A stretch of 33,161 nucleotides of DNA from Pseudomonadota bacterium (lineage in GTDB: Bacteria > Desulfobacterota > Desulfobacteria > Desulfobacterales > Desulfobacteraceae), in assembly GCA_018821715.1 (NCBI GenBank), contig JAHJLN010000227.1:1-33161 (forward strand), given 5' to 3'. A program made the translations under genes and the position numbers. Numbering within the stretch: the first letter of the stretch is position 1; every line of letters starts with the position of its first letter. The notes below the pieces were generated by a model. That model saw only the letters and a program-made list of their open reading frames with translations. It had not been told where the DNA came from and made no database searches. Shown piece after piece: positions 8,665 through 30,513 of this stretch.

Positions 8665-8686
8665 TCATATACTTAGGAGTCAAACT

Positions 8687-10595: not shown

Positions 10596-10676
10596 ATTAT
10601 AGACATTGGAACACCTCTGAAACTATTTTTTTATATCCATATTTAGCACTAATCATTTAAGCCAGGGAGACAGACC

Positions 10677-14653: not shown

Positions 14654-17053
14654 ATGACTGATGACGACAAGCCGATTACACCAGAAATAGTCGAAGACGA
14701 GAAAGAAAACAAAGACGGCCAACTGGTTCAGCAAATCACAAAGCCGGATATTTTATATCTTATTCCCATTACAGGCCGCCCGCATTTGCCTGCGCAGGTT
14801 CAACCCCTTATGGTCAACAAGATCAGGTGGGAAGGGACACTGTCAAAAGCATCCAAAGATTCAAAAAATCTTCTGGGCCTGGCCTATTTGTCAGAAGTAA
14901 AAGGCAAATATGTATATAAAGAGGATTTTCCAAAAGTGGGCTGCGTTGTCAGGATGATGAATATCGTGGATGTGCAGGGGAATATCCAGTTTATTGCCCA
15001 GGGCCTTGAAAGATTTCGAATCAAGCGGTTTCTTTCTGACAAACCGCCTTTTGTGGTTCAAGTGGAGTATTTTGAAAAAATAAATGAAAACGAAGATGAG
15101 CTCAAAGCCTATGCCATTGCTATTATCAATGCCATCAAGCAATTGCTCTCATTGAATCCCTTATACTCTGAAGAAGTAAGGCAGTATCTGGGAATGTTCA
15201 GCCCGGACCAGCCGTCCCCGTTGACGGATTTTGCCGCAGGCATTACCACTGCATCAGGTGATGACCTTCAGGAAGTTTTAGAGCTTGTATCTGTCCTGGG
15301 CCGGATGAAAAAAGTAATGATGCTTTTGCAAAAAGAGATTGAAATCGCCAAACTTCAAACCAAGATTCAAAAAGACGTTAATACCCAGGTAGATGAAAAT
15401 AAACGAAGGTTTTTCTTAATGGAACAGCTCAAAGCCATTCAAAAAGAACTTGGGCTGCAGAAAGATGATAAAACATCGGATGTGGATAAATTCAAAGAAA
15501 AATTTGCAAAGTTAAGCCCGCCTGAACATGTAGTAAAACGGTTTGATGAAGAGATTGAAAAATTATCTGTTCTTGAGACAGGCTCTTCTGAATACGGGGT
15601 CACCAGAAATTATCTGGATTGGATTACCACTTTTCCATGGGGGGTCTTTTCCGAGGATAATATTAATATTGAGCGGGCAGAGAAGGTTCTTGACCGGGAT
15701 CATGCAGGACTGTCAGATGTCAAAGAAAGAATCATAGAATTTTTTGCTGCCGGCATTTATAAAAAAGATATTGCAGGGTCTATCATCCTGTTTGTCGGCC
15801 CTCCCGGTGTCGGTAAAACCTCCATTGGAAAATCAATTGCAGAGGCGGTTGGAAGAAAATTTTACCGGTTCAGCCTTGGCGGAATGAGAGATGAAGCCGA
15901 GATTAAAGGGCATCGAAGAACTTATGTGGGGGCATTGCCCGGAAAACTGGTCCAGGCCTTAAAAGATTGCAAAGTGGCAAATCCGGTGATCATGCTCGAT
16001 GAAGTGGATAAAATCGGAATGTCTTACCAGGGTGATCCTGCATCTGCCCTGCTCGAAGTCCTTGATCCTGAACAGAATTCCGAATTTCTCGACCATTACA
16101 TGGACCTTCGGATTGATTTGTCAAAAGTTTTATTTATCTGTACGGCCAATCAGCTTGATACCATTCCAAGGCCGCTTCTGGACAGGATGGACCGGATTAA
16201 TCTGTCCGGCTATATTACTGAAGAAAAAATGTTGATTGCCAGAAAACATCTGTGGCCAAAGCTTTTAAAGCGGAACAACCTGACATCCAAAATAATCACC
16301 ATAACCGATCCGACCATCCGCTACATTATTGAGGGACATGCCAGGGAAGCCGGGGTCAGAAGTCTTGAAAAGCTTTTAAATAAAATCATCAGAAAAAGCA
16401 TTGTGACCATATTAAAAGAAAAGAAAGAGAAAATAAGGATCAGTATTAAAGTCCTGGAGGACTTGTTAGGGCCTCCGGTTTTTCAGCATGAAAAGCAGAT
16501 GTCAGGCGTAGGCGTAGTAACCGGGCTTGCCTGGACCCAGCTTGGCGGTGCAACCCTTCCCATTGAGGCGGTGCGGGTTCATGACAAAACCCCTGGGTTT
16601 AAACTGACAGGAAAGCTTGGTGAGGTGATGCAGGAGTCAGCCGCAATTGCCTATAGCCATGTCTGGGCAAATCTGACGTCCTTTAAAATCAGTAAAAAAT
16701 ATTTTGATAATGCCTTTATCCATATCCATGTACCCGAGGGAGCAACCCCGAAAGATGGCCCCAGTGCAGGGGTCACTATAGCAACCGCACTTGTTTCCCT
16801 TGCCACTGGAAAAGCGATCAAACGTCCCCTTGCCATGACAGGAGAAATTACGTTGACCGGTGATGTTCTTCCTGTGGGCGGTATTAAAGAAAAAATTATT
16901 GCTGCACGGCGGTCAGGAATTAACGAAATTATTCTGCCGCAAGGGTGTATGCCTGAGTTTAAGACCCTTCCGGAGCACATTAAAGAGGGCATTACCTTTC
17001 ATTTTGCAAAAAAATACAAAGATGTGTTTAAGATTGCATTTAATGGCCTCTAA
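14654..17053 (+). CDS. lon: Lon ATP-dependent protease
   Basis: The frame is open from 14525, but GAGAGG lies six bases before the ATG at 14654, giving MTDDDKPITPE and 799 residues, the usual Lon length. The N-terminal substrate-binding domain is at about 40-300 (ILYLIPITGRPHLPAQ). The AAA+ domain has Walker A GPPGVGKT (382-389) and Walker B VIMLDEVDK (D449, E450). The serine protease domain has S704 in DGPSAG and the catalytic Lys K747 in GGIKEKI, 43 residues apart as in E. coli Lon. It degrades misfolded and regulatory proteins in the cytoplasm. The last 11 bases overlap the start of the following glycosyltransferase gene, an unusual pairing for lon. Confidence 0.96.
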   Translation: MTDDDKPITPEIVEDEKENKDGQLVQQITKPDILYLIPITGRPHLPAQVQPLMVNKIRWEGTLSKASKDSKNLLGLAYLSEVKGKYVYKEDFPKVGCVVRMMNIVDVQGNIQFIAQGLERFRIKRFLSDKPPFVVQVEYFEKINENEDELKAYAIAIINAIKQLLSLNPLYSEEVRQYLGMFSPDQPSPLTDFAAGITTASGDDLQEVLELVSVLGRMKKVMMLLQKEIEIAKLQTKIQKDVNTQVDENKRRFFLMEQLKAIQKELGLQKDDKTSDVDKFKEKFAKLSPPEHVVKRFDEEIEKLSVLETGSSEYGVTRNYLDWITTFPWGVFSEDNINIERAEKVLDRDHAGLSDVKERIIEFFAAGIYKKDIAGSIILFVGPPGVGKTSIGKSIAEAVGRKFYRFSLGGMRDEAEIKGHRRTYVGALPGKLVQALKDCKVANPVIMLDEVDKIGMSYQGDPASALLEVLDPEQNSEFLDHYMDLRIDLSKVLFICTANQLDTIPRPLLDRMDRINLSGYITEEKMLIARKHLWPKLLKRNNLTSKIITITDPTIRYIIEGHAREAGVRSLEKLLNKIIRKSIVTILKEKKEKIRISIKVLEDLLGPPVFQHEKQMSGVGVVTGLAWTQLGGATLPIEAVRVHDKTPGFKLTGKLGEVMQESAAIAYSHVWANLTSFKISKKYFDNAFIHIHVPEGATPKDGPSAGVTIATALVSLATGKAIKRPLAMTGEITLTGDVLPVGGIKEKIIAARRSGINEIILPQGCMPEFKTLPEHIKEGITFHFAKKYKDVFKIAFNGL

Positions 17054-17705
17054 TGCGGTTATTGTTTTTTTAAAAGTCCCGGAAAAAGGCCAGGTAAAAA
17101 CAAGGCTTTCCGAATGTTTGAGCCAGACCTTTGTACTGGCGCTTTACAAAGGATTTGTCAGTGATATTTTAGAGACAATAGAAACTGCAGGGGACAAGTT
17201 TCTTTACTTCTGGCCGCCTGGGGGAAAAAAAAGACTTATCAACTTCCTGGGAAACAGGTATGTTTTTTTTCCCCAACAAGGGCAAGATCTTGGAGAAAGG
17301 ATGGCCAATGCCTTTGTGGATACATTTAAAAAAGGATATACCCAGGCCATATTAATCGGTACAGATATACCCGAACTTGGCAAAGAAGTCATTGCCCAGG
17401 CCTGCGAAATCCTTGAATCCGAAGATGCCGTGATCGGGCCTTCCGATGACGGCGGGTATTATTTGATCGGCTTTCGTAACACCACCTTCTCAAAAATGAT
17501 TTTTACTCAAATCGACTGGTCTACCAAGGCAGTGCTGGATCAGACCCTCAGGGCCATGAACCAAAGATCTATTGACTGCAAGCAGCTCTTGAAGCTGAGT
17601 GATATTGATACGCATGAGGATTTAACCGCGCTGGCGGACAGGGTAAAAAAAGGGGGAAAAATAGGAACAAGAACGCTTGAAATTCTTAGCTCATATGAAG
17701 CCTGA
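17043..17705 (+). CDS. TIGR04282-type glycosyltransferase (rSAM/selenodomain-associated, transferase 1; DUF2064)
   Basis: An ATG at 17043, inside the end of lon, begins MASNAVIVFLKVPEKGQVKTRL, where the family homology starts (220 residues). The protein shows the DUF2064 GT-A fold features: KxPxxGxVKTRL near the N-terminus, QGQDLGERMANAF, the IGTDIPEL acidic motif and GPSDDGGYYLIG. NCBI and TIGRFAMs place such proteins next to a radical SAM protein of the ArsS/selenodomain group, and some are called arsenosugar biosynthesis glycosyltransferases. No radical SAM gene is present in this window. It overlaps the next gene by 11 bases, and both are probably translated from the lon transcript. The actual sugar acceptor is unknown. 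Confidence 0.85.
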   Translation: MASNAVIVFLKVPEKGQVKTRLSECLSQTFVLALYKGFVSDILETIETAGDKFLYFWPPGGKKRLINFLGNRYVFFPQQGQDLGERMANAFVDTFKKGYTQAILIGTDIPELGKEVIAQACEILESEDAVIGPSDDGGYYLIGFRNTTFSKMIFTQIDWSTKAVLDQTLRAMNQRSIDCKQLLKLSDIDTHEDLTALADRVKKGGKIGTRTLEILSSYEA

Positions 17706-18399
17706 TATTTCCATTGTCATACCGGTATTAAATGAACATGCAGTGATAAACAAGACCATTAAGGTGCTTTATCATCAGCAGTTTTCAGGAATTTTCGAAG
17801 TAATTGTGGTGGATGGCAGCAAGGATGGCAGCACCATTAGTCGTATTCAAAACAAAGCGGTCATAAAAATCATTTCCCCCCCGGGAAGAGGCCCTCAGAT
17901 GAATTCCGGCGCTCGAATGGCTTCAGGAAAAATAATCTTGTTTCTCCATTGCGATACAATCCTGCCTGAAGGTGCATTGAATGCTGTGCTGGACATTATG
18001 AAAAATCAGTTGGTAAAAGCCGGCGCATTTGATCTTTCCATTGATGCAAAAGGTTTTTTTTACAGAATGATTGAAAAAACAGCCTCTTTTCGTTCCCGTA
18101 TTACAAAAATTCCCTATGGAGACCAGGCTATTTTTATCAGGAAAAATTATTTTTTTGAGATTGGACAATATCGCAACATCCCGATTATGGAAGATGTTGA
18201 ATTAATGCAAAGAATAAAAAAGGCCAAAGGCAGTATCCGGATTATAAATAAGCAAACAACAACGTCTGCAAGAAGATGGGAACAAGAAGGTGCACTGCGC
18301 TGCACTCTCAGGAACTGGATGATTCTAACCTTGTTTTTCTGGGGCGTCAAACCTGAAAAACTGGCAGCGTTTTATAAACCTGAAATCGATCGGAAATAA
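17695..18399 (+). CDS. TIGR04283-type family 2 glycosyltransferase (rSAM/selenodomain-associated, transferase 2)
   Basis: The ATG at 17695 begins MKPDISIVIPVLNEHAVI (234 residues); a TTG at 17677 is possible but adds residues without homology. It is a GT-A family 2 enzyme: IVIPVLNE, EVIVVDGSKDGS, GRGPQMNSGARMASGKIILFLHCDT (acidic metal site in HCDT) and YGDQAIFIRKNYF, then IPIMEDVELMQRIKK with the catalytic-type ED. The GRGPQMN signature is characteristic of the TIGR04283 group that pairs with TIGR04282. No membrane helices for lipid-linked substrates are seen except a hydrophobic C-terminal stretch (WMILTLFFWGVKPEKLAAFY). Its start lies within the end of its partner gene. Confidence 0.87.
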   Translation: MKPDISIVIPVLNEHAVINKTIKVLYHQQFSGIFEVIVVDGSKDGSTISRIQNKAVIKIISPPGRGPQMNSGARMASGKIILFLHCDTILPEGALNAVLDIMKNQLVKAGAFDLSIDAKGFFYRMIEKTASFRSRITKIPYGDQAIFIRKNYFFEIGQYRNIPIMEDVELMQRIKKAKGSIRIINKQTTTSARRWEQEGALRCTLRNWMILTLFFWGVKPEKLAAFYKPEIDRK

Positions 18400-18575: not shown

Positions 18576-19127
18576 ATGCCTAAAACATCTAAGGGTACCA
18601 AGAAAACCATTGCTACGCCACCAACCGAGATAAAGATCAAGATCAATGGGTGCTGGCATAATTTTGAACCTGAGCGGGGTGATATTACATCGACAATGAC
18701 GCTCTCCTATTTGCTGAGAGAGAAGCTGGGCTTCACCGGGCTCAAGGTTGCATGTGACGAAGGTGGTTGCGGTGCCTGCACTGTGATCATGGATGGCAAG
18801 GCCATCTTGTCCTGCATGATGCTGGCGGTTCAGGCCAATGGGCATGAAATACTTACCATCGAAGGACTTGAAAAGAATGATCCCATAGTGGCAGCATTTG
18901 CTGAACAATGCGAACCCGGATATGGTACTGCCCTTCAGTGCGGAATTTGTACACCCGGCTTTGTGATGAGCACCAAAGCCCTACTTGATGAAAATCCCGT
19001 GCCGACCATGGGTGAAGTAAAAGAAGCCCTTTCCGGTCATATCTGTCGTTGCGGATGCTACGCTGGTATTGCCCAAGCCGTAACGCACGCTTCAGAAAAA
19101 ATTGCGAAAAAAGGAGAAGTATCATGA
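18576..19127 (+). CDS. Molybdenum hydroxylase small subunit, two [2Fe-2S] clusters (CoxS/XdhC-like)
   Basis: This 183-residue protein carries electrons between the molybdenum centre and the flavin subunit. The plant-ferredoxin-type cluster is bound by C60, C65, C68 and C80 (CDEGGCGAC, then SC). The helical distal cluster domain is bound by C122, C125, C157 and C159 (CGICTPGF, then HICRCGCY). The usual family motif is CRCTGY; here an additional Cys (C161) follows the pair. The first 18 residues (KTSKGTKKTIATPPTE) are an extra basic tail. A GAAGGGGA lies before the ATG. The stop overlaps the start of the large subunit (ATGA), so the two are made together. Confidence 0.93.
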   Translation: MPKTSKGTKKTIATPPTEIKIKINGCWHNFEPERGDITSTMTLSYLLREKLGFTGLKVACDEGGCGACTVIMDGKAILSCMMLAVQANGHEILTIEGLEKNDPIVAAFAEQCEPGYGTALQCGICTPGFVMSTKALLDENPVPTMGEVKEALSGHICRCGCYAGIAQAVTHASEKIAKKGEVS

Positions 19128-21490
19128 AGCAGCCCTACACACCGCGGCCGAACTCGAATCGCAAATTTGTCGGTGGTTACCGACCCAAAATTGATGCCTG
19201 GGAAAAGGCCCGGGGGAAAGTAGAATATGTCGATGACATAACACTCAAAACTCGGTTCCCCGGTATGCTTTATGCCAAGGTCCTGCGCAGCCCCCATGCC
19301 CATGCCCGCATCACGGACATTGATGTGAGCCGGGCTGAACAGCTTCCCGGCGTTGTCTCCGTGATGACTTACAAGGACCCGGAATTCACCTCACTTCGGC
19401 CCACCAACGCTGGTTGGACCGATGGCGTAGATACGGTATCCTATGATAGGAAGATGTGGCGGGACTTCAATGATCGTCGAGTGCTGGGCGACTATGCCTG
19501 CTGGGTTACAGATGAAGTAGGCGCTGTTGTGGCCGCCGAAAGCGAAGAAATCGCTGATGAAGCAATTCGATTGATCGATGTCCAATGGGAGGTGCTTCCC
19601 TTTGTCCTTGATCCCATCGAAGCCATGAAGCCGGGGGCTCCCCTGATTCATCCGGATATGACACAGACCAATGTTTTGCCCCCGGAAAAAATGGGGGGAG
19701 ATGATGTCTTTTTGAACAAAGGCGACGTTGATGCCGATTTTGCAGAAGCCGAGGTGGTTATCGACGGTACCTCGATCCATCACAACGCCACACAGGCATC
19801 CCTTGATAATTGGTGTTGTCTTGTTGACTGGACAGAGGAAAAATTCACCCTCTACTCCAATTCCTTTGAAGCGGATCAAACACGCATGCATATCAGTGAA
19901 ATGCTCGACCTGCCGTTGCACAAGGTAACCGTGATCAGTTCCTATGTCGGCGGTCAGTTTGGCCGGGGAGATACCGGGGAGCAGCCTTTTTTCCTTTTTA
20001 CAGCCATTCTTTCCAAAAAAACAGGCCGTCCTGTAAAGTTCAGACATACCCGTCGGGAAAGTTTCCACGATTCACGTCAACCCTCCATCTATTATGGAAA
20101 GGTTGGTGCTAAAAAAGACGGTACCATCACCTCCTTGTACTTTAAATCCATCGGCAATACCGGTGCCTATGCAGATCACTCTATTTTTGCGCTGAAATTC
20201 GCTCCCCTGGAAATCTCGGAAGTGTCTTTTGCCCATATACCCAATGTGAAACTGGAATCCTATGCTGTTTATACCAACAAACTGCCTGCCTGTATGATGC
20301 GGGGCGTCGGGAATTCTCAGTTTAATCTTATTTTCGGACACATCGTCGACCTGCTGGCTGAAAAGCTGGATATGGATCCCATTGATCTTTGCATCAAAAA
20401 TTTCGGACACGAATGGGAAACCCTTCCGGATAAAAGTTTGATGGAAGTGCTTAGGCAGGGCGCCGAAAAGATCGGATGGCGTAAAAAGCGCAACAAACCC
20501 GGTCAGGGACCAACCTATGACAAGACCAAGAAACGAGGAGTAGGGTTTTCACTGCATCCGGCATGGCATGCGGAATGGCAGGAAGTTCGACGGGGACATA
20601 TTCCGATTTCCATTATCCTGAATCCTGACGGTACTGTAATCCTCAACGCACCCACCGTTGAAACCGGAACCGGCTCGAATACCTGCAATGTTCTGGGGTG
20701 TGCAGAAGCCTTGAATTTTCTGGGCGTTACGCCCGAGAAAATCCTCTGGAATCACGTGGTGAATACAGATACCAGCCTGAAAGACTGTGTGCAGACCGAC
20801 AGCTCCGTATCTTATCTGCAGTCTGAAGTGATCGCCGCTGCTGTGGAAGAGCTTAAAAAAGAGATTTTCGACAGAGCGGAGCCTGTTCTCAAGGCCAAAT
20901 CCAAGGATCTGGACATTGTTGACGGCCGAATTTTTGTCAAGAAAAACCCGGACCAGGGTCTTACCGTGAAAGAACTGCTGTTTCAAGGTGATCTGGTGCC
21001 CATCGTGGTAACCAAGAGCAAATTGGCCAATGCTGAAAAAACAGGTGTTCCTTACTTTGCCAATTTTGCCGAAGTGGAAGTGGATACAGATACTGGAAAA
21101 GTTGACGTACTGCATCTGGTGGTCATCAACGACTGCGGAACAGTCATGTTTGCTTCCGGCGCAGAAGCCCAGCAGGTGGGGGGCCAGGTTATGGGTATGG
21201 GTGAGACCCTGACGGAAGAAATCATTTATGACGAAACAACCGGAGTCCCCCTCAATTTTAATTTTATTGATTACAAGATTCCAACCATAGTGGACATGCC
21301 TGATATTGATCCCATCCTTCTTGAGATCTGGAAGGGAGCGGGAGAATACGGCGCATGCGGAATCGGCGAAGGCACCCTGACATGCACACCGCGGGCCATC
21401 ATGAATGCAATCTATAATGCCATTGGTGTCAGAATTAATGATATTCCGATCAAGCCCGAGAAAGTACTCCGGGCTCTGGGAAAGGTTTAA
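19124..21490 (+). CDS. Molybdenum hydroxylase large subunit (xanthine dehydrogenase/CoxL family)
   Basis: The ATG at 19124 has AAGGAG eight bases upstream and overlaps the previous stop; the frame is open from 19049, but that part is a shadow of the small subunit. The 788-residue protein begins with the a/b hammerhead domain (RKFVGGYRPKIDAWEKARGKVEYVDDI). It has the molybdopterin-cytosine-dinucleotide-type motifs GGQFGRG (276-282), CMMRGVGNSQ (390-399) and, near the end, GIGEGT, whose E749 corresponds to the catalytic Glu of the family. It would hydroxylate a carbon of an N-heterocycle, aldehyde or aromatic compound with water as oxygen source. GGQFGRG has Gln-Phe where CO dehydrogenases have their active-site loop on a different motif, so a CO dehydrogenase is unlikely. 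The substrate is unknown; the downstream TRAP transporter suggests an imported organic acid. Confidence 0.92.
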   Translation: MKQPYTPRPNSNRKFVGGYRPKIDAWEKARGKVEYVDDITLKTRFPGMLYAKVLRSPHAHARITDIDVSRAEQLPGVVSVMTYKDPEFTSLRPTNAGWTDGVDTVSYDRKMWRDFNDRRVLGDYACWVTDEVGAVVAAESEEIADEAIRLIDVQWEVLPFVLDPIEAMKPGAPLIHPDMTQTNVLPPEKMGGDDVFLNKGDVDADFAEAEVVIDGTSIHHNATQASLDNWCCLVDWTEEKFTLYSNSFEADQTRMHISEMLDLPLHKVTVISSYVGGQFGRGDTGEQPFFLFTAILSKKTGRPVKFRHTRRESFHDSRQPSIYYGKVGAKKDGTITSLYFKSIGNTGAYADHSIFALKFAPLEISEVSFAHIPNVKLESYAVYTNKLPACMMRGVGNSQFNLIFGHIVDLLAEKLDMDPIDLCIKNFGHEWETLPDKSLMEVLRQGAEKIGWRKKRNKPGQGPTYDKTKKRGVGFSLHPAWHAEWQEVRRGHIPISIILNPDGTVILNAPTVETGTGSNTCNVLGCAEALNFLGVTPEKILWNHVVNTDTSLKDCVQTDSSVSYLQSEVIAAAVEELKKEIFDRAEPVLKAKSKDLDIVDGRIFVKKNPDQGLTVKELLFQGDLVPIVVTKSKLANAEKTGVPYFANFAEVEVDTDTGKVDVLHLVVINDCGTVMFASGAEAQQVGGQVMGMGETLTEEIIYDETTGVPLNFNFIDYKIPTIVDMPDIDPILLEIWKGAGEYGACGIGEGTLTCTPRAIMNAIYNAIGVRINDIPIKPEKVLRALGKV

Positions 21491-21500
21491 GGAGAAAAAG

Positions 21501-23792
21501 ATGACGCTCAGAAACTTCAAACACATATCAGCTTCGTCTCTCAAGGAAGCCACGGCCATCTTGTCCAGGGGAAATGGAAAAGCAGTTGCCATTGCGGGCG
21601 GGACAGACTTGCTGGGAGTACTTAAAGACAAAATTCATGCCCAGTCTCCTGAGGTCGTGGTGGATCTCAAGACTATTCCAAGACTGAACTATGTGAAGGC
21701 AACAAAAACAGGGCTTTGCATCGGCGCCCTGACCACCCTCACAGACATATGCAAAAATGAAACAATCCAGGACCAGTATGCATTGTTGGCACAAGCCGCC
21801 AGATCCGTGGCTTCCCCCCAGCTTAGAAATATGGGTACCCTTGGCGGCAACATCTGCCAGGAGCCCAGATGCTGGTATTATCGTGCTCCCGACGATTTGT
21901 TTCATTGCCTGAGAAAAGGCGGCAACAAATGCGGTGCACTCCTTGGGGAGAATCGATATCATTCGATTTTCGGCAGCGTGAGGGTGGCACAACCTGCCTG
22001 TTCTGAAACCTGCCCTGGAAATATCGAAATCCCGGCTTACATGGATTATGTCCGCAAGGGAGACCTTCGCAGCGCCGCTCTGATCATACTTGCAAATAAC
22101 CCCATCCCGGCGATTACCGGCCGGATATGCCCGCATTTATGTGAATCCAAATGTAACCGTTCCGAGTTTGATGAAGCTGTTTCCATTCGGAATGTTGAAC
22201 GGGTTGTGGGGGACTATATTCTTGACAATGCAGCAGAATTGTTACCACCACCCACAAAGCAGCTTAAGAAGAGTGTGGCCGTTGTGGGTGCAGGTCCTGC
22301 CGGCATATCTGCGGCATATTATCTTAGAAAAGCCGGATACCAGGTCACAGTGTATGACAAAATGCCGGAAGCAGGCGGTATGCTAACCTATGGTATTCCG
22401 GCCGACCGTCTTGCCAAAGATGTCGTTAAAAAACAGATCAGCGCCTTTGAGGCCATGGGCATTGAATTCAAGTTCAATGTCACGGTGGGTCAAGAGGGCG
22501 TCACCCTGAAAGACCTTCGGACAAAATTCACAAGCGTGTTTCTGGCTTCAGGTGCATGGGGAGAGAGAACCCTTCCTATGGAAAAAGCAGAACTTCTCAC
22601 CCCGGGTATTGATTTTCTGGCCTCCATGGGACTGGGTAAAAAACCCGCCATCGGCAAAAAAGTGCTGGTCGTCGGCGGTGGCAATGTGGCCGTTGATGTT
22701 GCCGTTACTGCCAGACGTCTGGGTGCAGAGCAGGTCACCATGGTCTGCCTGGAATCCCGGGACACCATGCCGGCATTTGAAGAAGAAATCGCAGAGGCCC
22801 TCCATGAAGGCGTAACCATCCAGACGACTTTTGGTCCCAATAAAATTATGGAAAAAAAGGGCAGCCTCACCGGGATGGAAGTTGTCAGCTGCACATCGGT
22901 GTTTGACGAGAAGGGTCAGTTTAATCCCAAGTTTGATCCTTCTGTAAAACAGATCATTGAGGCTGACCAAATCATCCTGGCCATCGGTCAATCAACTGAT
23001 ATCTCCTATGCCGGAGATAAGATAAAAAACAACCGAGGCTGGATTGTCATTAATGAAGAGACCCGAGCCACAAACATGAAAGGCGTTTATGCCGGTGGTG
23101 ATATCACCTCAGGTCCTGCGTCCGTCATCCATGCCGTTGCTGCCGGGCGTAAAACCGCTCATTCCATCGCCAAGATCACGCCTGAAACCAGTATGCCCAT
23201 GGGACAATCCCTTGAGGTGCATTGTGCAAGCCATGATAAATGTTCGAGAACCTTGAACATAAACGGTCCTGACGACATTCGCTCCGAAGCTGCCCGTTGC
23301 GTGAACTGTGGGTGTATTGCGGTGAATGCATCCGACATGGCGCCGGCTCTCATGGCACTGGGAGCAAAGATCAAAACTACCAAAAGAACGCTTGCCGCAG
23401 ATGATTTTTTTGCTGCAAACATAATGAAGTGCACTGTTCTTGAGCCTGATGAACTTGTAGAGGAAATACAAATTCCTGCCCCGGCAAAAACAAACCGGCA
23501 GGGCTACAAGAAATTTAGAATACGGAATGCAATTGATTTTCCCATTGTCAGTATGGCCTATTCCTTCAGTTATGACGGCCAGGTCATTAAAGATGCCAAT
23601 ATTGTATTCGGCGCCGTGGCTCCTATTCCATTGAGAGCCCAGGCAGTTGAAGCGTATCTTGAAGGCAAACCAGCCAGCGATGAAACGGCCATAGCAGCGG
23701 GTGAGGTTGCAGTGGTGGAAGTTAAGCCGCTTTCTAAAAACATGTTCAAAGTGCAAGTTGTGAAAGCCTTGCTCAGGAAAATGCTTGTGTGA
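21501..23792 (+). CDS. FAD subunit of molybdenum hydroxylase interrupted by a GltD/NfnB-like oxidoreductase module
   Basis: The ATG at 21501 follows AAGGAG, giving 763 residues against about 320 for a normal FAD subunit. Residues 1-158 are FAD_binding_5: AIAGGTDLLG, then GTLGGNICQEPRCWYYR (112-128) and a Cys-rich loop (C136, C144) ending GENRYHSIFG. Residues 160-600 are a foreign module: Fer4_20-type cysteines C167, C171 and C210, C214, C218; a flavin Rossmann motif VVGAGPAG (261-268); an NAD(P) motif VVGGGN (390-395); and the closing AGGDITSG (531-538). At 594-605 the GltD-type tail RSEAARCVNCGC runs directly into IAVNASDMAPALMALGA, the resumption of the normal FAD subunit, followed by the CO_deh_flav_C domain to the end. 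The product should hold two flavins and at least one [4Fe-4S] cluster, exchanging electrons between the molybdenum centre and NAD(P)H. It is separated from the large subunit by 10 bases. Confidence 0.9.
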   Translation: MTLRNFKHISASSLKEATAILSRGNGKAVAIAGGTDLLGVLKDKIHAQSPEVVVDLKTIPRLNYVKATKTGLCIGALTTLTDICKNETIQDQYALLAQAARSVASPQLRNMGTLGGNICQEPRCWYYRAPDDLFHCLRKGGNKCGALLGENRYHSIFGSVRVAQPACSETCPGNIEIPAYMDYVRKGDLRSAALIILANNPIPAITGRICPHLCESKCNRSEFDEAVSIRNVERVVGDYILDNAAELLPPPTKQLKKSVAVVGAGPAGISAAYYLRKAGYQVTVYDKMPEAGGMLTYGIPADRLAKDVVKKQISAFEAMGIEFKFNVTVGQEGVTLKDLRTKFTSVFLASGAWGERTLPMEKAELLTPGIDFLASMGLGKKPAIGKKVLVVGGGNVAVDVAVTARRLGAEQVTMVCLESRDTMPAFEEEIAEALHEGVTIQTTFGPNKIMEKKGSLTGMEVVSCTSVFDEKGQFNPKFDPSVKQIIEADQIILAIGQSTDISYAGDKIKNNRGWIVINEETRATNMKGVYAGGDITSGPASVIHAVAAGRKTAHSIAKITPETSMPMGQSLEVHCASHDKCSRTLNINGPDDIRSEAARCVNCGCIAVNASDMAPALMALGAKIKTTKRTLAADDFFAANIMKCTVLEPDELVEEIQIPAPAKTNRQGYKKFRIRNAIDFPIVSMAYSFSYDGQVIKDANIVFGAVAPIPLRAQAVEAYLEGKPASDETAIAAGEVAVVEVKPLSKNMFKVQVVKALLRKMLV

Positions 23793-23868: not shown

Positions 23869-23983
23869 TTGACAGCATTTTTTTAAAGAAGATAAGTTTT
23901 TGGCTTAAGTTGTGGCATATGCTTTTGTACAATTAGTTCAAGATAGTTGGAACATTGACCAGACACATGGTAATGGTTGTCAA
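23869..23983 (+). promoter_or_regulatory. Leader of the TRAP genes with candidate -35 box and repeated TTGAC/GTCAA elements
   Basis: The 235-base gap before dctP holds TTGACA (23869-23874) with a weak -10 GATAAG (23891-23896). Further TTGAC copies lie at 23841-23845 and 23955-23959, and an inverted GTCAA at 23979-23983. TTGAC/GTCAA is also the core of the palindrome before the hydroxylase genes, so the same regulator could act here. The spacing (19) differs from the upstream site (13), which weakens the case. Confidence 0.35.
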
Positions 23984-24027
23984 ATTGGTTAAATGTTAAC
24001 AAATCATCAGCAAAGGAGATAGGTAGA

Positions 24028-25080
24028 ATGAAACGACGCGAATTTATTAAAAAAGTTGGAGTAGGAACTGCTACAGCGATAGCTGCAACAGCAGTATCGG
24101 TACCATCTGCAATTGCGGGGAAAAAAACAACCATCAAATGGCGGATGCAGACCTATGCTGGCAATGCCTTGGCCGAACATGTCATTAAACCGTCCATTGA
24201 CGCGTTTAATAAAGCTGCCAACGGGGAGATGATTATCGAGCTGTATAATGCCGATCAACTTGTGCCCCAGGGTGAATTATTCAGGGCAGTTGCCAAGGGT
24301 ACTATTGACGCTGCCCAGAGTGACGATGACTCAATGGCAGCCCCGGTTGATATCTCTGTATTTGCAGCATATTTTCCCTTTGCTACCCGCTATTCCCTGG
24401 ATGTTCCAGCACTTTGGAACTGGTGCGGCTTGAATGAAATCTGGGAAGAAGCATATTCTAAAATTAAAGGCGTCACCTGGTTGAGCACCGGTGCCTGGGA
24501 TCCCTGTAACTTTTCAACCTCCAAGCCGATAAAAAGTGTTGCAGACCTTAAAGGCCTGAGAGTATACACTTTCCCCACAGCGGGGAAATTTTTGCAGCAA
24601 TTCGGTGTCATCCCCATGTCTCTGCCCTATGAGGACGTACAGATGGCAATACAGACGGGTGAACTTGACGGTGTCTGCTGGTCCGGAATTACCGAGGTTT
24701 ATACGGTTGGCTGGGCCGATGTCTGCAAGTATTATCTCACCAATCCCATAGCAGGTGCATGGGCTGGTTCATACTTTGCAAACAGTGATAAATGGGATGC
24801 CCTGCCCGAGCACCTGAAAACATTGTTCAAGCTCAGCATGGACAGTTCACACTACTACCGTCAACACTGGTACTGGTATGGAGAAGCAAAATACCGTACC
24901 AGAGGCGGCAAGATGGCACTGACCACCATCCCTGAAGAAGACTGGAAGTCTGTCGAGGCGGCAGCTTACAAATTATGGGATGAGGTTGCAGCCAAGAGTC
25001 CAAGAGATGCCAAGGTAGTGGCTATTCTAAAAGAATATGCCAAGACCATGGAAGCAGCCGGACCTCCATACCGGTATTAA
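24028..25080 (+). CDS. dctP: TRAP transporter substrate-binding protein, DctP family
   Basis: AAAGGAGATAGG lies before the ATG at 24028 (350 residues). The signal peptide MKRREFIKKVGVGTATAIAA has a twin-arginine-like RREF start and probably ends at SAIAG, so the protein may be exported folded. The mature part is a DctP-fold receptor of the subgroup linked to mannitol/chloroaromatic-type TRAP systems (WRMQTYAGNALAEHVIKPSIDAFNKA; DLKGLRVYTFPTAGKFLQQFG; YEDVQMAIQTGELDGVCWSG). The Arg in GLRVYTFP is in the position that contacts the substrate carboxylate in this family. It binds an organic acid in the periplasm and hands it to DctQM. The ligand cannot be named, but the adjacent hydroxylase suggests it is that enzyme's substrate or product. 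Confidence 0.92.
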   Translation: MKRREFIKKVGVGTATAIAATAVSVPSAIAGKKTTIKWRMQTYAGNALAEHVIKPSIDAFNKAANGEMIIELYNADQLVPQGELFRAVAKGTIDAAQSDDDSMAAPVDISVFAAYFPFATRYSLDVPALWNWCGLNEIWEEAYSKIKGVTWLSTGAWDPCNFSTSKPIKSVADLKGLRVYTFPTAGKFLQQFGVIPMSLPYEDVQMAIQTGELDGVCWSGITEVYTVGWADVCKYYLTNPIAGAWAGSYFANSDKWDALPEHLKTLFKLSMDSSHYYRQHWYWYGEAKYRTRGGKMALTTIPEEDWKSVEAAAYKLWDEVAAKSPRDAKVVAILKEYAKTMEAAGPPYRY

Positions 25081-25271: not shown

Positions 25272-25781
25272 ATGTTTAAACCAATTAAAATTTTTGTACG
25301 ATCCGTTGATGCTACGAACACAGTTGTTGGTATTTTTGCAATGTATCTGATTTTTGCCCTGGGCGGCATCCTGTTGTTTGAATCTGTATCCAGAACCATC
25401 TTTGACCTGCCCCACATCTGGGCTGTGGAAATAGCGCAGTTCATTATGGCCGCTTATTACCTGCTCGGCGGCGGATACTCCATGATTATTGACGGACATG
25501 TCAGGATGGACCTGCTCTATGGCCGGTGGACAAAACAGAGAAGGGCTGTGGCCGATCTTATTACCGGCCCCATCCTCATTTTTTACATGGTGGTTCTCCT
25601 TATCGGCTCCCTTTCCAGCCTTGATTATGCCATTGAATATAACCAAGTCAACTATACTCCGTGGGGGCCGCCGCTGACTCCCATCAAGTTAATCATGACC
25701 ATTGGAATAGTACTGATGCTTTTGCAGTGCATTGCAGAATGGTTCAAAGACCTTGCGACTGCCATGGGGGAGAAAATATAA
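25272..25781 (+). CDS. dctQ: TRAP transporter small permease, DctQ family
   Basis: This 169-residue protein has four membrane helices (about 17-39, 55-75, 93-115 and 135-157) in the DctQ arrangement. The family segments are ESVSRTIFDLPHIWAVEIAQFIMAAYYLLGGGYSM and GHVRMDLLYGRWTKQRRAVADL. It forms the stator-like partner of DctM and docks the receptor. The AAAGGTGC before the ATG is its ribosome site. The stop overlaps the dctM start by one base (TAATG), so the two are coupled. Confidence 0.92.
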   Translation: MFKPIKIFVRSVDATNTVVGIFAMYLIFALGGILLFESVSRTIFDLPHIWAVEIAQFIMAAYYLLGGGYSMIIDGHVRMDLLYGRWTKQRRAVADLITGPILIFYMVVLLIGSLSSLDYAIEYNQVNYTPWGPPLTPIKLIMTIGIVLMLLQCIAEWFKDLATAMGEKI

Positions 25782-27106
25782 TGAGTCATGAATTAATTGC
25801 TTTTATGATCTTCTCTTCTATGATTCTCATGCTCCTCACAGGGCAACGCGTCTTTGCCGCCATCGGTGGTGTGGCTGCTCTCTTTTCTCTTCTTCTATGG
25901 GGGAATGGCGGCGTAGAGATGCCGTTCAACGCAAGTTTTGTGCTGTTGAACTGGTATCCCCTCCTGACCTTGCCCCTGTTTATTTACATGGGGTACATGT
26001 TTTCAGAATCAGGGATCGCAAGTGACCTCTATCGCATGTTCCACGTCTGGACCGGACCGGTAAATGGCGGTCTGGCTATCGGAACCATCGGCCTGATGGT
26101 GGTCATATCTGCCATAAACGGCTTGAGTGTGGCCGGCATGGCCATTGGTGCCAGTATTGCCATGCCGGAAATGCTGAAACGGGATTATGACAAGGTAATG
26201 GTAACCGGCGTTATTCAGGCCGGCAGTTCTCTTGGTATCCTGGTCCCGCCGAGTGTGGTTCTTGTCCTCTATGGAATGATCGCAAGGCAGAACGTCGGCC
26301 GGTTATGGATGGCCGGTGTTTTCCCCGGTCTTTTGCTTGCATTTTTGTTTATTGCCTATATTCTTATCCGATGCAAAATGAATCCATCGCTGGGACCGGC
26401 TTTATCCCTGGAGGAACGACAAAAGATCTCCTGGAAGGAAAGGTTTGTCCTGCTAAGGGCCGGGATAGTTCCCATCCTCATCATGGTTTCCATGACCGGA
26501 CTTTTCCTGGCAGGTGTCACAAGCCTGGTTGAATGTTCAGCTGCTGGCGCGGCCGCCACAACACTGGCAGCCGTCATCAAGCGCAGGTTAACCTGGGAGG
26601 TCATGCAGGACACTCTGCGCAATACGCTGAGTGTCAGTTGCATGTTCATGTGGGTTATCCTAGCAGCCCTTTGTTTTGGGGCTGTCTTTGACGGCCTTGG
26701 CGCTGTGCATGCTATAAAAACCCTATTTCTGGATCAGTGGCATTTAAGCCCGTGGGGCGTATTGATCATGATGCAGGTGAGTTATATACTGATGGGGATG
26801 TTCCTGGATGATACAGCCATGCTTATCATTGTTGCGCCTCTTTACGTCCCTTTGGTTATCAGCCTAGGGTTTAACCCGATCTGGTATGGCGTTCTTTATA
26901 CTATCACCTGCCAGATTGCTTACATGACGCCTCCTTTTGGGTATAACCTGTTTTTGATGAAGGCCATGGCCCCTCCGGAGGTAACATTGGCAGATATCTA
27001 CCGTTCCATTATTCCCTTTGTGCTGGTCATGATTTTTGGTCTGACCCTGGTCATCATTTTCCCCCAGATCGCTTTATGGCTGCCCAATGCATATTTTGGT
27101 AAATAA
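25781..27106 (+). CDS. dctM: TRAP transporter large permease, DctM family
   Basis: The ATG at 25781 overlaps the dctQ stop; the upstream open frame is a shadow of dctQ. The 441-residue protein has about 12 hydrophobic segments and the family features PLFIYMGYMFSESGIASDLY, GAGSS-like VIQAGSSLGILVPPSVVLVLYG and MFLDDTAMLIIVAPLYVPL, with the TPPFGYNLFLMK loop near the end. It is the sodium-driven elevator subunit that moves the substrate across the inner membrane. It completes a standard P-Q-M operon. A degraded copy of its own C-terminus follows 17 bases after its stop. Confidence 0.93.
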   Translation: MSHELIAFMIFSSMILMLLTGQRVFAAIGGVAALFSLLLWGNGGVEMPFNASFVLLNWYPLLTLPLFIYMGYMFSESGIASDLYRMFHVWTGPVNGGLAIGTIGLMVVISAINGLSVAGMAIGASIAMPEMLKRDYDKVMVTGVIQAGSSLGILVPPSVVLVLYGMIARQNVGRLWMAGVFPGLLLAFLFIAYILIRCKMNPSLGPALSLEERQKISWKERFVLLRAGIVPILIMVSMTGLFLAGVTSLVECSAAGAAATTLAAVIKRRLTWEVMQDTLRNTLSVSCMFMWVILAALCFGAVFDGLGAVHAIKTLFLDQWHLSPWGVLIMMQVSYILMGMFLDDTAMLIIVAPLYVPLVISLGFNPIWYGVLYTITCQIAYMTPPFGYNLFLMKAMAPPEVTLADIYRSIIPFVLVMIFGLTLVIIFPQIALWLPNAYFGK

Positions 27107-27248: not shown

Positions 27249-28289
27249 ATGAAATATTATGAAAAAGCAAAAATAAAAGCCGTTCCGGTCCAGGACGCTG
27301 TGGGAAAGGTTCTGCTCCATGATATCACTCAAATTGTGCCGGACCTCTTTAAAGGATCGTCTTTTCGTAAAGGCCACATCATTACCGATGCAGACGTGGA
27401 AGCACTGCTGAATCTGGGTAAACAAAATATTTATGTTGCAGGTCTCAATGGTGAAGTTCATGAAAATGACGCTGCCCTGCGCATTGCCCGGGCCGCCATG
27501 GGAAATGGAATTGATATCAGCATGCCAAAAGAGGGAAAGGTGGGTTTTAGCGCCAATACCTGCGGGCTGCTCAAGGTCAATGTCCAGGCCCTTGAAAAAT
27601 TAAATGGGGTAGAAGATGTTATCTTTGCTACCCTGCACACGGACCAGCCGGTTGAGGTAGGTCAGGAGCTTGCCGGAACCCGGGTCATTCCTTTGTCCAT
27701 AGATGAAAAAAAGGTTGAGGAAGCTGAAATCCTGTGTAAAAAATATTTTCCGATCATTGAAATCAAACCATTTGCCAAGCTGGATGTGGGTCTGGTGGTA
27801 ACCGGATCAGAAGTCTTCAGCGGACGGATCAGGGATGGGTTCGGCCCGGTGGTTGCCAAAAAGTTTAAAGATCTTGGCAGCAACATCACCCGGAAAATCA
27901 TTGTGTCCGATGAGATTTCCATGACTGTATCCGCCATTAAGGACTTATTGGCAGAGGGTGCCCAGATGATCGCGGTAACAGGCGGCATGTCTGTGGATCC
28001 GGATGATCTGACGCCGGCTGCCATCCGGGCGGCAGGAGGTGAGATCGTCTTTTATGGTGCCCCGGTGCTGCCCGGTGCCATGTTTATGCTGGCCTATATC
28101 GGAACAGTGCCGGTCATTGGTCTTCCCGGGTGCGTCATGTACCACAGGGCCTCTATCTTTGACCTGGTGGTACCCAAACTCCTTGCCGGAGACACACTTA
28201 AAAAAACAGATATTGTTAAAATGGGGCACGGGGGATTTTGTGCAAGCTGCAAAGAGTGTCGATTTCCCTCTTGCAGTTTTGGAAAATAA
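27249..28289 (+). CDS. MoeA-like molybdopterin-binding protein with C-terminal Cys cluster
   Basis: This 346-residue protein has CAGGAG upstream of its ATG. The N-terminal part (VPVQDAVGKVLLHDITQIVPDLFKGSSFRKGHIIT) is like the MoeA leader domain. The central MoCF_biosynth domain shows DVGLVVTGSEVFSGRI and VTGGMSVDPDDLTP, the nucleotide and molybdopterin site of the MogA/MoeA fold. The end, GFCASCKECRFPSCSFGK (about 330-346), holds four Cys (CxxCxxCxxxxC), which could bind a metal or Fe-S cluster. Such proteins accompany molybdenum hydroxylases and are thought to insert or activate the cofactor. The XdhC-like gene follows after 17 bases, so these belong to one maturation operon with the hydroxylase genes. 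Confidence 0.87.
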   Translation: MKYYEKAKIKAVPVQDAVGKVLLHDITQIVPDLFKGSSFRKGHIITDADVEALLNLGKQNIYVAGLNGEVHENDAALRIARAAMGNGIDISMPKEGKVGFSANTCGLLKVNVQALEKLNGVEDVIFATLHTDQPVEVGQELAGTRVIPLSIDEKKVEEAEILCKKYFPIIEIKPFAKLDVGLVVTGSEVFSGRIRDGFGPVVAKKFKDLGSNITRKIIVSDEISMTVSAIKDLLAEGAQMIAVTGGMSVDPDDLTPAAIRAAGGEIVFYGAPVLPGAMFMLAYIGTVPVIGLPGCVMYHRASIFDLVVPKLLAGDTLKKTDIVKMGHGGFCASCKECRFPSCSFGK

Positions 28290-28306: not shown

Positions 28307-29359
28307 ATGGAATCATTAACCCAACCCATACTTGATTGTTTAAAACAGGGCATTCCCTTTGCCCTGGCCACCATAATTGCTCACAAGGGTTCCACTCCCA
28401 GAACATCCGGCAGTAAAATGGTGGTCCTTTCTGATCGAAGTCTGTTTGGCACTATTGGCGGCGGCCTGGTGGAAGCCCGTGTCATGGATGCCTGCATTGA
28501 TATGATGAGTGTGCCCCAGTGCAGAATCATTGAATTTACCCTGGACCAGAAATTGAAAGACGGACTGGACATGGTCTGCGGCGGGAACTTAACTGTATGG
28601 ATTGAGACCTTTGGTTCCCACCCATCCCCTTCCCTGATACAGATATTTGCCACCATGGCGGCTCAGGAGAAGGCCGGAAAAAAAGCAGTGGTCATTTCAA
28701 AAATCAATGGATTCTCCGGCGCATCTTTTACCACTGAAAAATGCCTTGTTCTGCCCGATGGAACCATCATCGGTACCAACATGATTCCCAAGGTTCTGTT
28801 TGATGCCGTCTGTAGCAACCAATTTTCAGGTGCTGCTCCCATGATTCAAAACTATGGTCTGGAAGAGTTCATTGTTGAGCCGAGCCAGACCTGTGATACC
28901 CTTTATATATTTGGTGCAGGTCATGTGGGGTTCCAGTTGGCAAAGATGGCCCACTTAACTGAATTTCGTACCATCGTGGTGGATGACAGAGAAGAATTTG
29001 CCAATCAAAAACGATTTAAACATGCCCAGACCGTCCTGGTGGTAGATAAATTTGCCAATGCCTTTGATACCCTGTCCATTGACAAGAATGCCTATATTGT
29101 CATCCTGACCCGGGGGCATCTCCATGACCAGACCGTTCTTGAAGCAGCACTTAAGACCGAAGCCCCTTACATCGGGATGATCGGCAGCTCTCGAAAACGG
29201 AACCAAATCTATGCAAACCTTACAAAAAAGGGAGTTTCAAAAGCATCCCTTGACCAGGTCTATTCTCCCATTGGACTTGATATTAATTCAGAAACTCCGG
29301 CTGAAATCGCTGTCAGTATCATCGGTCAAATCATTCAGGTCAGGGCTCAGATGCGATGA
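28307..29359 (+). CDS. xdhC: XdhC/CoxI-family molybdenum cofactor maturation protein
   Basis: This 350-residue protein has the two family domains. The N-terminal XdhC_CoxI segment includes ALATIIAHKGSTPRTSGSKMVV and FGTIGGGLVEARV, with Cys in MVCGGNLTVWIE. The C-terminal XdhC_C Rossmann domain has YIFGAGHVGFQLAKMA, VVDDREEFAN, ILTRGHLHDQTVLEAAL and YIGMIGSSRKR. XdhC proteins bind the molybdenum cofactor, help its sulfuration and deliver it to the hydroxylase large subunit. The stop overlaps the next start as ATGA. This is the clearest sign that the island's hydroxylase needs a dedicated, sulfurated cofactor. Confidence 0.93.
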   Translation: MESLTQPILDCLKQGIPFALATIIAHKGSTPRTSGSKMVVLSDRSLFGTIGGGLVEARVMDACIDMMSVPQCRIIEFTLDQKLKDGLDMVCGGNLTVWIETFGSHPSPSLIQIFATMAAQEKAGKKAVVISKINGFSGASFTTEKCLVLPDGTIIGTNMIPKVLFDAVCSNQFSGAAPMIQNYGLEEFIVEPSQTCDTLYIFGAGHVGFQLAKMAHLTEFRTIVVDDREEFANQKRFKHAQTVLVVDKFANAFDTLSIDKNAYIVILTRGHLHDQTVLEAALKTEAPYIGMIGSSRKRNQIYANLTKKGVSKASLDQVYSPIGLDINSETPAEIAVSIIGQIIQVRAQMR

Positions 29360-30513
29360 CCCTGCCAATGCCTCCGGCCATGGCCCTTTCCGCCGTGATT
29401 CCGGCGGCTGGATTTTCCTCCCGTATGCACCAATATAAACCGTTGCTCAAGCTTGGGGGCAAGCCCATGATTGAGGTAGTGATTCGCCTTTTTCAACGCT
29501 GCGGTATCCTTGATATTATAGTGGTCACCGGCCATAACCAGGATCTTTTAAACCCCATCGTCCAAAAGGTTGGTGCCAGATCCGTGTTTAACCCGGATTT
29601 TAAAACCGGCATGCTGGGTTCCATCCAAAAAGGTGCTGGACAAATTTCTTCAAAAAGTCGGGGATTTTTTCTGCTGCCCGTGGATATCCCGGCCATCCGG
29701 CCTGTCACTATTCAGACCCTTATCCTATCCTTTGAAAAATCGGGTGAAAACATCATCATTCCAGAATTCTGCCATACTCCGGGTCATCCCCCCCTGATTC
29801 CGGCCCGACTAATCCCCAAGATCGTTTCAATGGGTTCGGATTCAAATCTGGGGAAACTGTTGCTTTCCCAAGACAATCGCCTGGTTCGCCACCCTGTCCA
29901 TGATCGGGGCATCCTGCTGGATGCAGACACCCGGGAAGACTATGAGATCCTGGCCCAAAAATATCAGCAGATGAATATTCCGGATAAGGCAGAATGCCAG
30001 TCCATTATCCAATGGGTTCTTCCAGGGGAAATCGCTCTTCAGTCTCATCTTACCCGTGTAGCAGAAACTGCTCTGAAACTGGGTCATGCTGTTGAGAGAG
30101 GGGAGGGGGGGATCGACAAAACATACAAGAAAAGCCGGTTGAACCTGGACCTCATCCAGGCCGCAGCTCTGCTCCATGACATCAAACGTAAAGAAAAAAA
30201 TCATGCCCAGGCCGGCAGTCGATTGCTTAAGGCCTTGGGATTTCCTCAAGTTGCCGACATAGTAGCAGAGCACATGACCATCCAACCTGGAAATCTGATA
30301 ACAGAAAAGGAAATAGTTTATTTGGCAGATAAGCTCTGCCACGGCAACCGGGTGGAGCCCGATTATACCAAACGGTTTAAAGAGAAGATCAAACAGGCCC
30401 CGGATGCTGAAATCAGAATTTTCAGACGATATAAAGCAGCCAAACAAATACAGGCCTGCATTGAAGCGGCTACAGGACAATCCATCCGCACCATTCTCCA
30501 AAATACTCCCTGA
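29356..30513 (+). CDS. MocA/MobA-like nucleotidyltransferase fused to an HD domain
   Basis: This is a 385-residue two-domain protein. Residues 10-200 form an NTP-transferase domain: AVIPAAGFSSRMHQYKPLLKLGGKPM (a MocA-type LAAGxSxRMGxxK loop with His at the usual Gly), the metal site in LPVDIPAIRP and GHPPLIP. This part resembles MocA, the CTP:molybdopterin cytidylyltransferase that makes the dinucleotide cofactor of xanthine-dehydrogenase-type enzymes. Residues about 229-370 form an HD domain: SHLTRVAET (first His), ALLHDIKRKE (HD pair at about 273) and YLADKLCHG (last Asp). HD proteins are metal phosphohydrolases, so a step on a nucleotide or phosphorylated cofactor is possible. The gene is coupled to the XdhC gene by ATGA and ends 15 bases before the convergent Usp gene. 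Confidence 0.88.
   Translation: MTLPMPPAMALSAVIPAAGFSSRMHQYKPLLKLGGKPMIEVVIRLFQRCGILDIIVVTGHNQDLLNPIVQKVGARSVFNPDFKTGMLGSIQKGAGQISSKSRGFFLLPVDIPAIRPVTIQTLILSFEKSGENIIIPEFCHTPGHPPLIPARLIPKIVSMGSDSNLGKLLLSQDNRLVRHPVHDRGILLDADTREDYEILAQKYQQMNIPDKAECQSIIQWVLPGEIALQSHLTRVAETALKLGHAVERGEGGIDKTYKKSRLNLDLIQAAALLHDIKRKEKNHAQAGSRLLKALGFPQVADIVAEHMTIQPGNLITEKEIVYLADKLCHGNRVEPDYTKRFKEKIKQAPDAEIRIFRRYKAAKQIQACIEAATGQSIRTILQNTP

Follow-up and report, generated by a model that had tools for sequence, protein, structure and literature searches.

How do electrons reach, or leave, the molybdenum centre of an enzyme whose FAD subunit houses a second redox module? The question is raised by one gene in a stretch of 33,161 nucleotides from a bacterium of the Desulfobacteraceae (assembly GCA_018821715.1, contig JAHJLN010000227.1; hereafter the window). 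The gene encodes one intact chain of 763 residues, in which a GltD/NfnB-like module splits the FAD subunit of a molybdenum hydroxylase: the host sequence breaks off after residue 158 and continues from C605. Its coordinates, frame and length had been given correctly in an earlier note on this DNA: the ATG at 21501 stands behind AAGGAGA, 10 bases after the gene of the molybdenum subunit, the stop occupies 23790-23792, and the open frame has no internal stop.

A GltD-like module inside an FAD subunit

Pfam domains follow one another along the chain in the order FAD_binding_5 (5-120), Fer4_20 (163-242), Pyr_redox_2 (258-549) and CO_deh_flav_C (669-762). With residues 159-601 removed, the chain aligns across the former insertion point (phmmer), each time in a single stretch, with three FAD subunits of known structure: 5y6q_B (query residues 11-317 of 320, E 2e-41), PaoB (5g5g_B; 23-317) and the beta subunit of 4-hydroxybenzoyl-CoA reductase (HBCR; HcrB, 1rm6_B; 26-280). 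Both Pfam domains of a xanthine oxidase-family FAD subunit score above their cut-offs and are contiguous once the insert is taken out. Domain order and excised alignments bear out the central claim of the earlier note, namely that a GltD/NfnB-like oxidoreductase is nested in an XdhB/CoxM-type FAD subunit at these boundaries in one chain. Some of its details required amendment. The first 158 residues are an FAD-subunit half as described, but the HBCR-type [4Fe-4S] loop they contain had been overlooked; the Fer4_20 domain, taken to be full, matches its profile over 28-110 of 113 only, because its first CxxC, C600/C603, is found where the module ends; and the second glycine loop, placed at 391-394, is G392-G394.

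The same junction is found in 23 full-length fused proteins from two phyla, the window's included, which we divide into classes A (10 rows, with the window's), B (nine rows) and C (four rows, Bacillota). Among the 58 genomes compared, G000, G023, G019, G004, G016, G017 and G012 give one match over the whole, or nearly the whole, query, and G009 encodes a full-length fused protein in a 795-residue frame; the fused genes of G020 and G022 are truncated where their contigs stop, give or take a few bases, and that of G013 is split by a frame change. A scan of a genome collection that reaches close relatives only returned five full-length close copies in named records (83-87% identity). That the gene is an artefact, created by a frameshift, an assembly join or a chimeric metagenome-assembled genome (MAG), has a negligible probability: the window's assembly is fragmented (447 contigs) and two relatives (G013, G396) have genes split by a frame change, but the reading is refuted by the conservation of the junction, across which 23 full-length frames from many assemblies and two phyla stay open, and the frameshift or join that the earlier note had named as refuting its claim is thereby excluded.

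Two observations on individual relatives may be recorded here. Both split genes (G013, L051 10138-12515; G396, L110 3020-5355) break inside the GltD module, through sequencing error or decay. A fused protein of Bacillota (L201 2191-4920), a 910-residue frame, carries a long Gly/Ala-rich, probably disordered stretch that stops about 50 residues before the EARRCLNCGC end of its insert.

The position of the insert is best appreciated from the unfused relatives, proteins of about 330 residues that keep a plain loop, e.g. RYHSIFGGSVKGGCIAVHPSD. Where an unfused protein reads, for instance, YHSIFG-GSVKGG-C-IAVHPSD, a fused one reads YHSIFG (or a near variant), then the insert, then RCxNCGC-xAV. C605 aligns on the fourth loop cysteine of HBCR beta, PaoB and 5y6q_B, while C144 aligns on C138 of PaoB and C136 on a cysteine of 5y6q. 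The chain accordingly has four loop cysteines, C124, C136, C144 and C605, which would correspond to cysteines 122, 138, 146 and 155 of HBCR and 119, 129, 138 and 157 of PaoB, residues we take to be ligands of an extra [4Fe-4S] cluster. Because the loop is plain in unfused relatives, and because in fused proteins the whole insert lies between YHSIFG and the last cysteine, the alignments place the insert in the HBCR/PaoB-type ligand loop, after the third cysteine and before the fourth.

The insert itself (residues 159-604) follows the GltD order, except that the first CxxC of the two-cluster domain comes at its end (C600, C603), directly before G604-C605. The cluster residues of Fer4_20 (seven cysteines plus a Glu/Gln position) and the two Rossmann glycine loops, for FAD and NAD(P), are present, the former as C167, C171, C210, C214, C218, E233, C600 and C603. 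We infer that C600 and C603 belong to the distal cluster of the GltD module and C605 to the cluster of the FAD subunit. In all 23 fused proteins C124, C136, C144, C167, C171, C210, C214, C218, C600, C603, C605 and E233 are invariant, as are the glycines of both nucleotide loops, while C119 varies. The bringing together of both module ends at one cluster probably pre-dates the fusion in this GltD subfamily, since 33 of 39 unfused GltD-like proteins (some of them limited by the stretch fetched) have an RCxxC at most 120 residues after the module, often with further cysteines beyond it. The pattern EA.RC..CGC occurs also in 9bov_A and 9n5u_A, in low-scoring second stretches.

An AlphaFold model of the insert alone (residues 159-605) has a predicted local distance difference test score (pLDDT) of 72.5, and a Foldseek search with it returned NfnABC, StnABC, NfnI and NfnAB as the best matches, followed by glutamate synthase and dihydropyrimidine dehydrogenase (DPD). 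Six of the 23 GltD loci that one scan of viral contigs yielded were used in the alignment for this model; three such scans, made for alignment rows, gave no relative of the FAD subunit. E233 aligns with the glutamate of NfnB/NfnL (4ylf_B, 5jca_L) and with a lysine in the NfnABC/StnABC chains. At the NAD(P) site the motif is CLE in 9/10 proteins of class A, 4/4 of class C and 2/9 of class B, the other seven class B proteins having YRRT/S and the remaining class A protein (L049) YRRT. CLE hints at NADH, and stays a hint because CLE and YRRT types are alike seen among unfused GltD proteins.

A putative electron line to molybdenum

We consider it probable that the protein is an HBCR-type wire with the GltD module as its built-in NAD(P)H input, forming a linear chain to molybdenum. 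The line is proposed by analogy with DPD, a solved precedent in which electrons pass from NADPH to FAD, along a line of [4Fe-4S] clusters and on to FMN (PMC8097209, in its accessible part). The GltD module would bind one FAD plus two [4Fe-4S] clusters. Its start and its end would both be tied to the distal cluster, through C167, C218, C600 and C603, and the last of these putative ligands stands two positions ahead of C605. Electrons would travel from NAD(P)H to FAD, the proximal [4Fe-4S], the distal [4Fe-4S], the HBCR-type [4Fe-4S], the second FAD, two [2Fe-2S] and molybdenum, or in reverse. The module would stand at the site where ferredoxin would dock on HBCR, so that a separate carrier would be superfluous; and since the distal cluster also serves Nfn as the exit to ferredoxin, the fusion would directly unite two ferredoxin-facing ends. 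HBCR takes its electrons from reduced ferredoxin, and the HBCR-like Ucdh takes them from NADH, according to the accessible text of PMC12771579. A direct link between NAD(P)H and the molybdenum centre, as the earlier note proposed, is the natural reading of the nested one-chain arrangement. As to direction, we have a slight preference for a reductive reaction, namely dehydroxylation of the substrate.

The partner subunits agree with a xanthine oxidase-family holoenzyme, as Fer2/Fer2_2 and MoCoBD subunits are encoded in one operon with the FAD subunit. The best solved relative of the molybdenum subunit is HBCR alpha (1rm6_A, 254 bits; the next reaches 176). None of the three subunits attains the profile cut-offs of HBCR proper (TIGR03193, 127.7 of 257.8 bits; TIGR03194, 377 of 994.55; TIGR03195, 153.5 of 404.55).

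Several points weigh against the linear line. C136 and its PaoB counterpart stand two positions apart, the alignment with HBCR has shifted gaps and sets C144 against C138, and one unfused relative (L126) has no fourth cysteine. The ligand roles in HBCR and PaoB are presumed, as is the distal-cluster assignment, which we carry over from DPD; the [4Fe-4S] cluster of PaoB probably lies off the main electron path. The ends of the insert model, C600 and C603 included, have a pLDDT below 50, and a model of the whole chain (1-763), built on an eight-row alignment, reached a mean pLDDT of 42.3 and a predicted template modelling score of 0.35. Use of NAD(P)H is predicted from the fold and the glycine loops only. 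Finally, the HBCR-type cluster is no proof of reductive use, because PaoB shares it and yet oxidises aldehydes.

This last point leads to the reading that comes closest to the preferred one, which has the same wire working in reverse: a substrate, perhaps an aldehyde, would be hydroxylated at molybdenum and the electrons passed out to NAD(P)+ through the GltD module. Such oxidative use is quite possible. Most of the xanthine oxidase family are hydroxylases, XdhA is the best NCBIfam match of the molybdenum subunit (421 bits, below the cut-off of 780), an adjoining tripartite ATP-independent periplasmic (TRAP) importer suggests catabolism, and the same cluster loop occurs in PaoB; against this, the nearest solved molybdenum subunit is that of the reductive HBCR.

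The earlier note had further suggested flavin-based electron bifurcation. As in Nfn, NAD(P)H would be used at the GltD site and ferredoxin at the exposed [4Fe-4S] junction, with the molybdenum chain as the other branch of a bifurcation or confurcation. The insert is indeed nearest in fold and sequence to NfnABC, StnABC, NfnI and NfnAB, and E233 matches the glutamate of 4ylf_B and 5jca_L. However, the same position holds lysine in the NfnABC/StnABC chains, and a glutamate ligand is found in glutamate synthase too (PMC8097209, accessible part). The order of the cysteines suggests a single line of clusters with one visible exit from the inserted flavin, and the operon genes scanned, to which this search was confined, include no NfnA/NfnS-like [2Fe-2S]-FAD partner that could serve as second acceptor; an FNR-like open reading frame lies at 9255-10595, 8 kb upstream of the operon. 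Kinship being the sole positive evidence, bifurcation is not supported, and we regard it as improbable.

Less probable still is that the module is a regulatory or structural relic that transfers no electrons. It has seemingly been lost in at least one lineage (the unfused L129, among fused class B) and is broken in G013 and G396, yet all its cluster cysteines, E233 and the glycines of both loops are invariant (23/23), although class B modules go down to 39% identity to the window's.

Distribution and history of the fusion

Since GltD-like proteins are common (a query with the whole protein matches somewhere in 58/58 relatives), residues 1-158 served as the query for wider searches in the window's order, in its phylum and in Bacillota, the phylum, by NCBI name, of a MAG titled Hespellia. 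Within the order, 129 of 291 genomes matched; the fused genes occupy the six top-scoring places, one in each of six genomes, and beyond these no open frame above 600 residues occurs among the matches listed. Within the phylum 86 of 395 genomes matched at E <= 1e-20. Besides the window's genome, nine carry an intact fused gene (G644, G610, G322, G510, G639, G487, G451, G662 and G339), G396 a split and G627 a cut-off one; G690, G609, G350 and G390 have long frames without a GltD module. In Bacillota 8 of 398 genomes matched at E <= 1e-25, and three of these carry four fused genes.

A tree of 62 GltD modules, whose comparison set was made up of GltD proteins of relatives that matched well, with two Hespellia proteins added, rather than of all GltD, groups the 23 inserts as a single clade (100/99; present in 100% of 200 bootstrap trees). 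In the tree built from 81 FAD subunits, class A (98/94) and class C (99/99) each form a clade, and the nine class B rows fall within a 29-row clade (99/99) alongside 20 unfused ones. Both trees leave out L064 (cut off) and FAD rows below 250 residues or of at most 110 bits, and the split L051 and L110 and the cut L052 and L112 fell out likewise. On a 73-row FAD set with classes A and B, the fused label requires four changes, the minimum being three, and a single clade of all 19 fused FAD subunits was rejected there (approximately unbiased test, p 0.00114).

Because the inserts form one clade and their host FAD subunits do not, and because an unfused protein is nested among fused ones, there was probably one fusion, followed by losses and exchange of the cassette; transfer of the cassette, on several occasions, into genes that lacked it would explain the trees too. 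The nested protein, L129 (6088-7167, G616), stands among seven class B rows (99/90) and has a 17-residue spacer from YHSIFG to the last cysteine, against 3 to 6 residues in other unfused proteins; the spacer is likely the scar of a lost GltD module. Position in the two trees differs for some rows: L097 and L098 are class B by the FAD tree and stand beside A and C in the GltD tree, and L049 is class A by the FAD tree and outermost in the GltD tree. L049 is the divergent fused gene of G012 (8072-10528; 49% identity to the window's, with the other NAD(P) motif). At about 10640-10840, after this gene, a stop-containing GltD remnant shows 82% identity to the module of the window; one copy has apparently been replaced by another.

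The window's molybdenum subunit shares 28-32% identity with those of classes B and C and with most of those of unfused enzymes. Within class B a quick tree, which carries a long-branch warning on how the group holding B joins another, shows closely similar molybdenum subunits in fused and unfused enzymes, which would allow the influence of the donor to be studied with the chemistry kept constant. One class B genome, G610, encodes a fused enzyme (L098) as well as an unfused one (L114). A candidate that did not hold is the Rosetta-stone idea of a separate GltD gene beside unfused relatives: no GltD-like open reading frame (E <= 1e-6) was found at any of 61 unfused loci within the stretch fetched, many contigs being short. 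In the class A genome G132 (L086 6713-9580) the [2Fe-2S] and molybdenum subunits share one open frame of 956 residues, so the whole complex would consist of two chains.

Operon, substrate clues and known systems

The features of the operon are collected in the table. The reading frame of the large subunit opens at 19049, and the ATG at 19124, which overlaps the stop of the small subunit, was chosen as its start. Directly upstream of the operon (16860-18399) stand two genes that score above the cut-offs of TIGR04282 and TIGR04283, families of arsenosugar-type glycosyltransferases.

Table. Genes of the molybdenum hydroxylase operon in the window and parts of the fused FAD subunit
Feature	Position	Strand	Basis or remark
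Small subunit, 183 residues	18576..19127	+	Pfam Fer2 and Fer2_2, two [2Fe-2S]; ATG behind AAGGGGA
Large molybdenum subunit	19124..21490	+	Pfam Ald_Xan_dh_C, MoCoBD_1, MoCoBD_2
Fused FAD subunit with nested GltD module, 763 residues	21501..23792	+	profile matches, alignments
FAD subunit, first half (residues 1-158), with C124/C136/C144 of the putative HBCR/PaoB-type [4Fe-4S] loop	21501..21974	+	TIGR03195, 3-157
Inserted GltD/NfnB-like module (residues 159-604)	21975..23312	+	Fer4_20, Pyr_redox_2; model of 159-605
Junction C-V-N-C-G-C (residues 600-605)	23298..23315	+	alignments
FAD subunit, second half (residues 605-763)	23313..23789	+	CO_deh_flav_C, 669-762
TRAP solute-binding protein DctP, Tat-type signal	23977..25080	+	match to Csal_0678 (4uab_A), 472 bits
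TRAP small permease DctQ	25272..25781	+	profile search
TRAP large permease DctM	25661..27106	+	profile search
MoCF_biosynth-domain protein, probable molybdenum-cofactor accessory protein	27249..28289	+	profile search
XdhC-related maturation factor	28307..29359	+	NF045664, above cut-off
DVU_1551-family NTP transferase, MocA-like	29356..30513	+	NF045665, above cut-off

The adjoining transporter may give a hint of the substrate. The next match of DctP after Csal_0678 reaches 70 bits. Csal_0678 binds ethanolamine through Glu220 (PMC12410723, accessible part; see also PMC10132767, PMC4646407). The window's DctP keeps the glutamate of the GITE motif; our guess is that this is Glu220, the count along the chain being off by three. 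Eight of nine genus genomes with a close-type fused gene have a DctP match (E <= 1e-60), the exception being G004, whose contig ends behind the fused gene, as against one of the 17 others (G018, partial; Fisher p 5e-5), among which G009 and G022, with more distant or cut-off fused genes, were placed. As seven of the eight have DctP on the same contig as the fused gene (that of G023 lies on a different contig, at 61% identity), this co-occurrence reflects linkage and is not independent evidence. Ethanolamine ammonia-lyase (EutB) was considered as a partner of an ethanolamine-type transporter and rejected, since it was seen in only 2/26 genus genomes, one of them (G004) with a fused gene, and none was shown in the other 24. 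Elsewhere, the class A cluster of G132 adjoins a PotFGHI-like putrescine transporter and an ornithine carbamoyltransferase, and the DctP of G009 resembles solved ones weakly at best (87 bits to 2zzv, presumably a lactate binder). Locus neighbours of the other fused clusters, where scanned, reveal no common pathway; in the Bacillota cluster of G902 the end of a glycyl-radical enzyme gene lies directly upstream (L198 11521-12237). An amine substrate is no more than a lead.

Compared with known systems, the modules are familiar and their nesting at a metal-cluster loop is unusual. HBCR and PaoB have in common with the window's enzyme an FAD subunit with an extra cysteine loop and the three-subunit layout; they differ in having no GltD module, HBCR being fed by ferredoxin. 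NfnB/NfnL, GltD and the large subunits of NfnABC/StnABC share the fold, the two-cluster Fer4_20 cysteines and the FAD and NAD(P) loops, NfnB/NfnL also the position of E233; in the window, however, the module is nested in a domain of another enzyme, and its RCxxC runs into a cysteine of the host domain. DPD offers the succession proposed here, with NADPH, FAD, several [4Fe-4S] clusters in line and a second flavin site (PMC8097209, accessible part), but its second half is a dihydroorotate dehydrogenase-like FMN domain and a ferredoxin domain placed end to end, not the FAD subunit of a molybdenum hydroxylase with a nested module. Urolithin C dehydroxylase (Ucdh) is an HBCR-like molybdenum enzyme that uses NADH; the accessible text of PMC12771579 mentions no GltD module in its FAD subunit.

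In E. coli a molybdenum hydroxylase relative (XdhD-YgfM) and a GltD-containing protein (YgfK) are encoded in one gene cluster, and the earlier note took YgfK and YgfM for the separate-polypeptide version of the fused chain. This does not hold: in the assays reported in the accessible part of PMC12507026, yanthine is the product of urate reduction by XdhD-YgfM, and YgfK (together with SsnA and NAD(P)H) acts on yanthine as a separate reductase that is not reported there as the electron donor of YgfM. GltD fusions have been tabulated for the dimethyl sulfoxide reductase family and not for the xanthine oxidase family (PMC6147048, Table 4, accessible part, which may cover molybdenum-binding subunits only). 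In the searchable open literature, with subscription papers mostly outside it, no account of a GltD module within an FAD subunit of the xanthine oxidase family came to light.

A further proposal, which we rate as a long shot, is that a GltD cassette born once acts as an exchangeable electron input for diverse molybdenum hydroxylases in two phyla and forms, in addition, a three-way bifurcating or confurcating junction between NAD(P)H, ferredoxin and the molybdenum substrate; if true, the cassette and its junction would be a new type of flavin-based bifurcating enzyme. The window provides a clear example of a 446-residue redox enzyme inside another redox domain, with both its ends at a metal cluster. 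On the question of how such an enzyme is supplied with electrons, the layout of this large natural insertion points to an answer: the donor would be an enzyme built into the ligand loop, at the very cluster where ferredoxin would otherwise dock.

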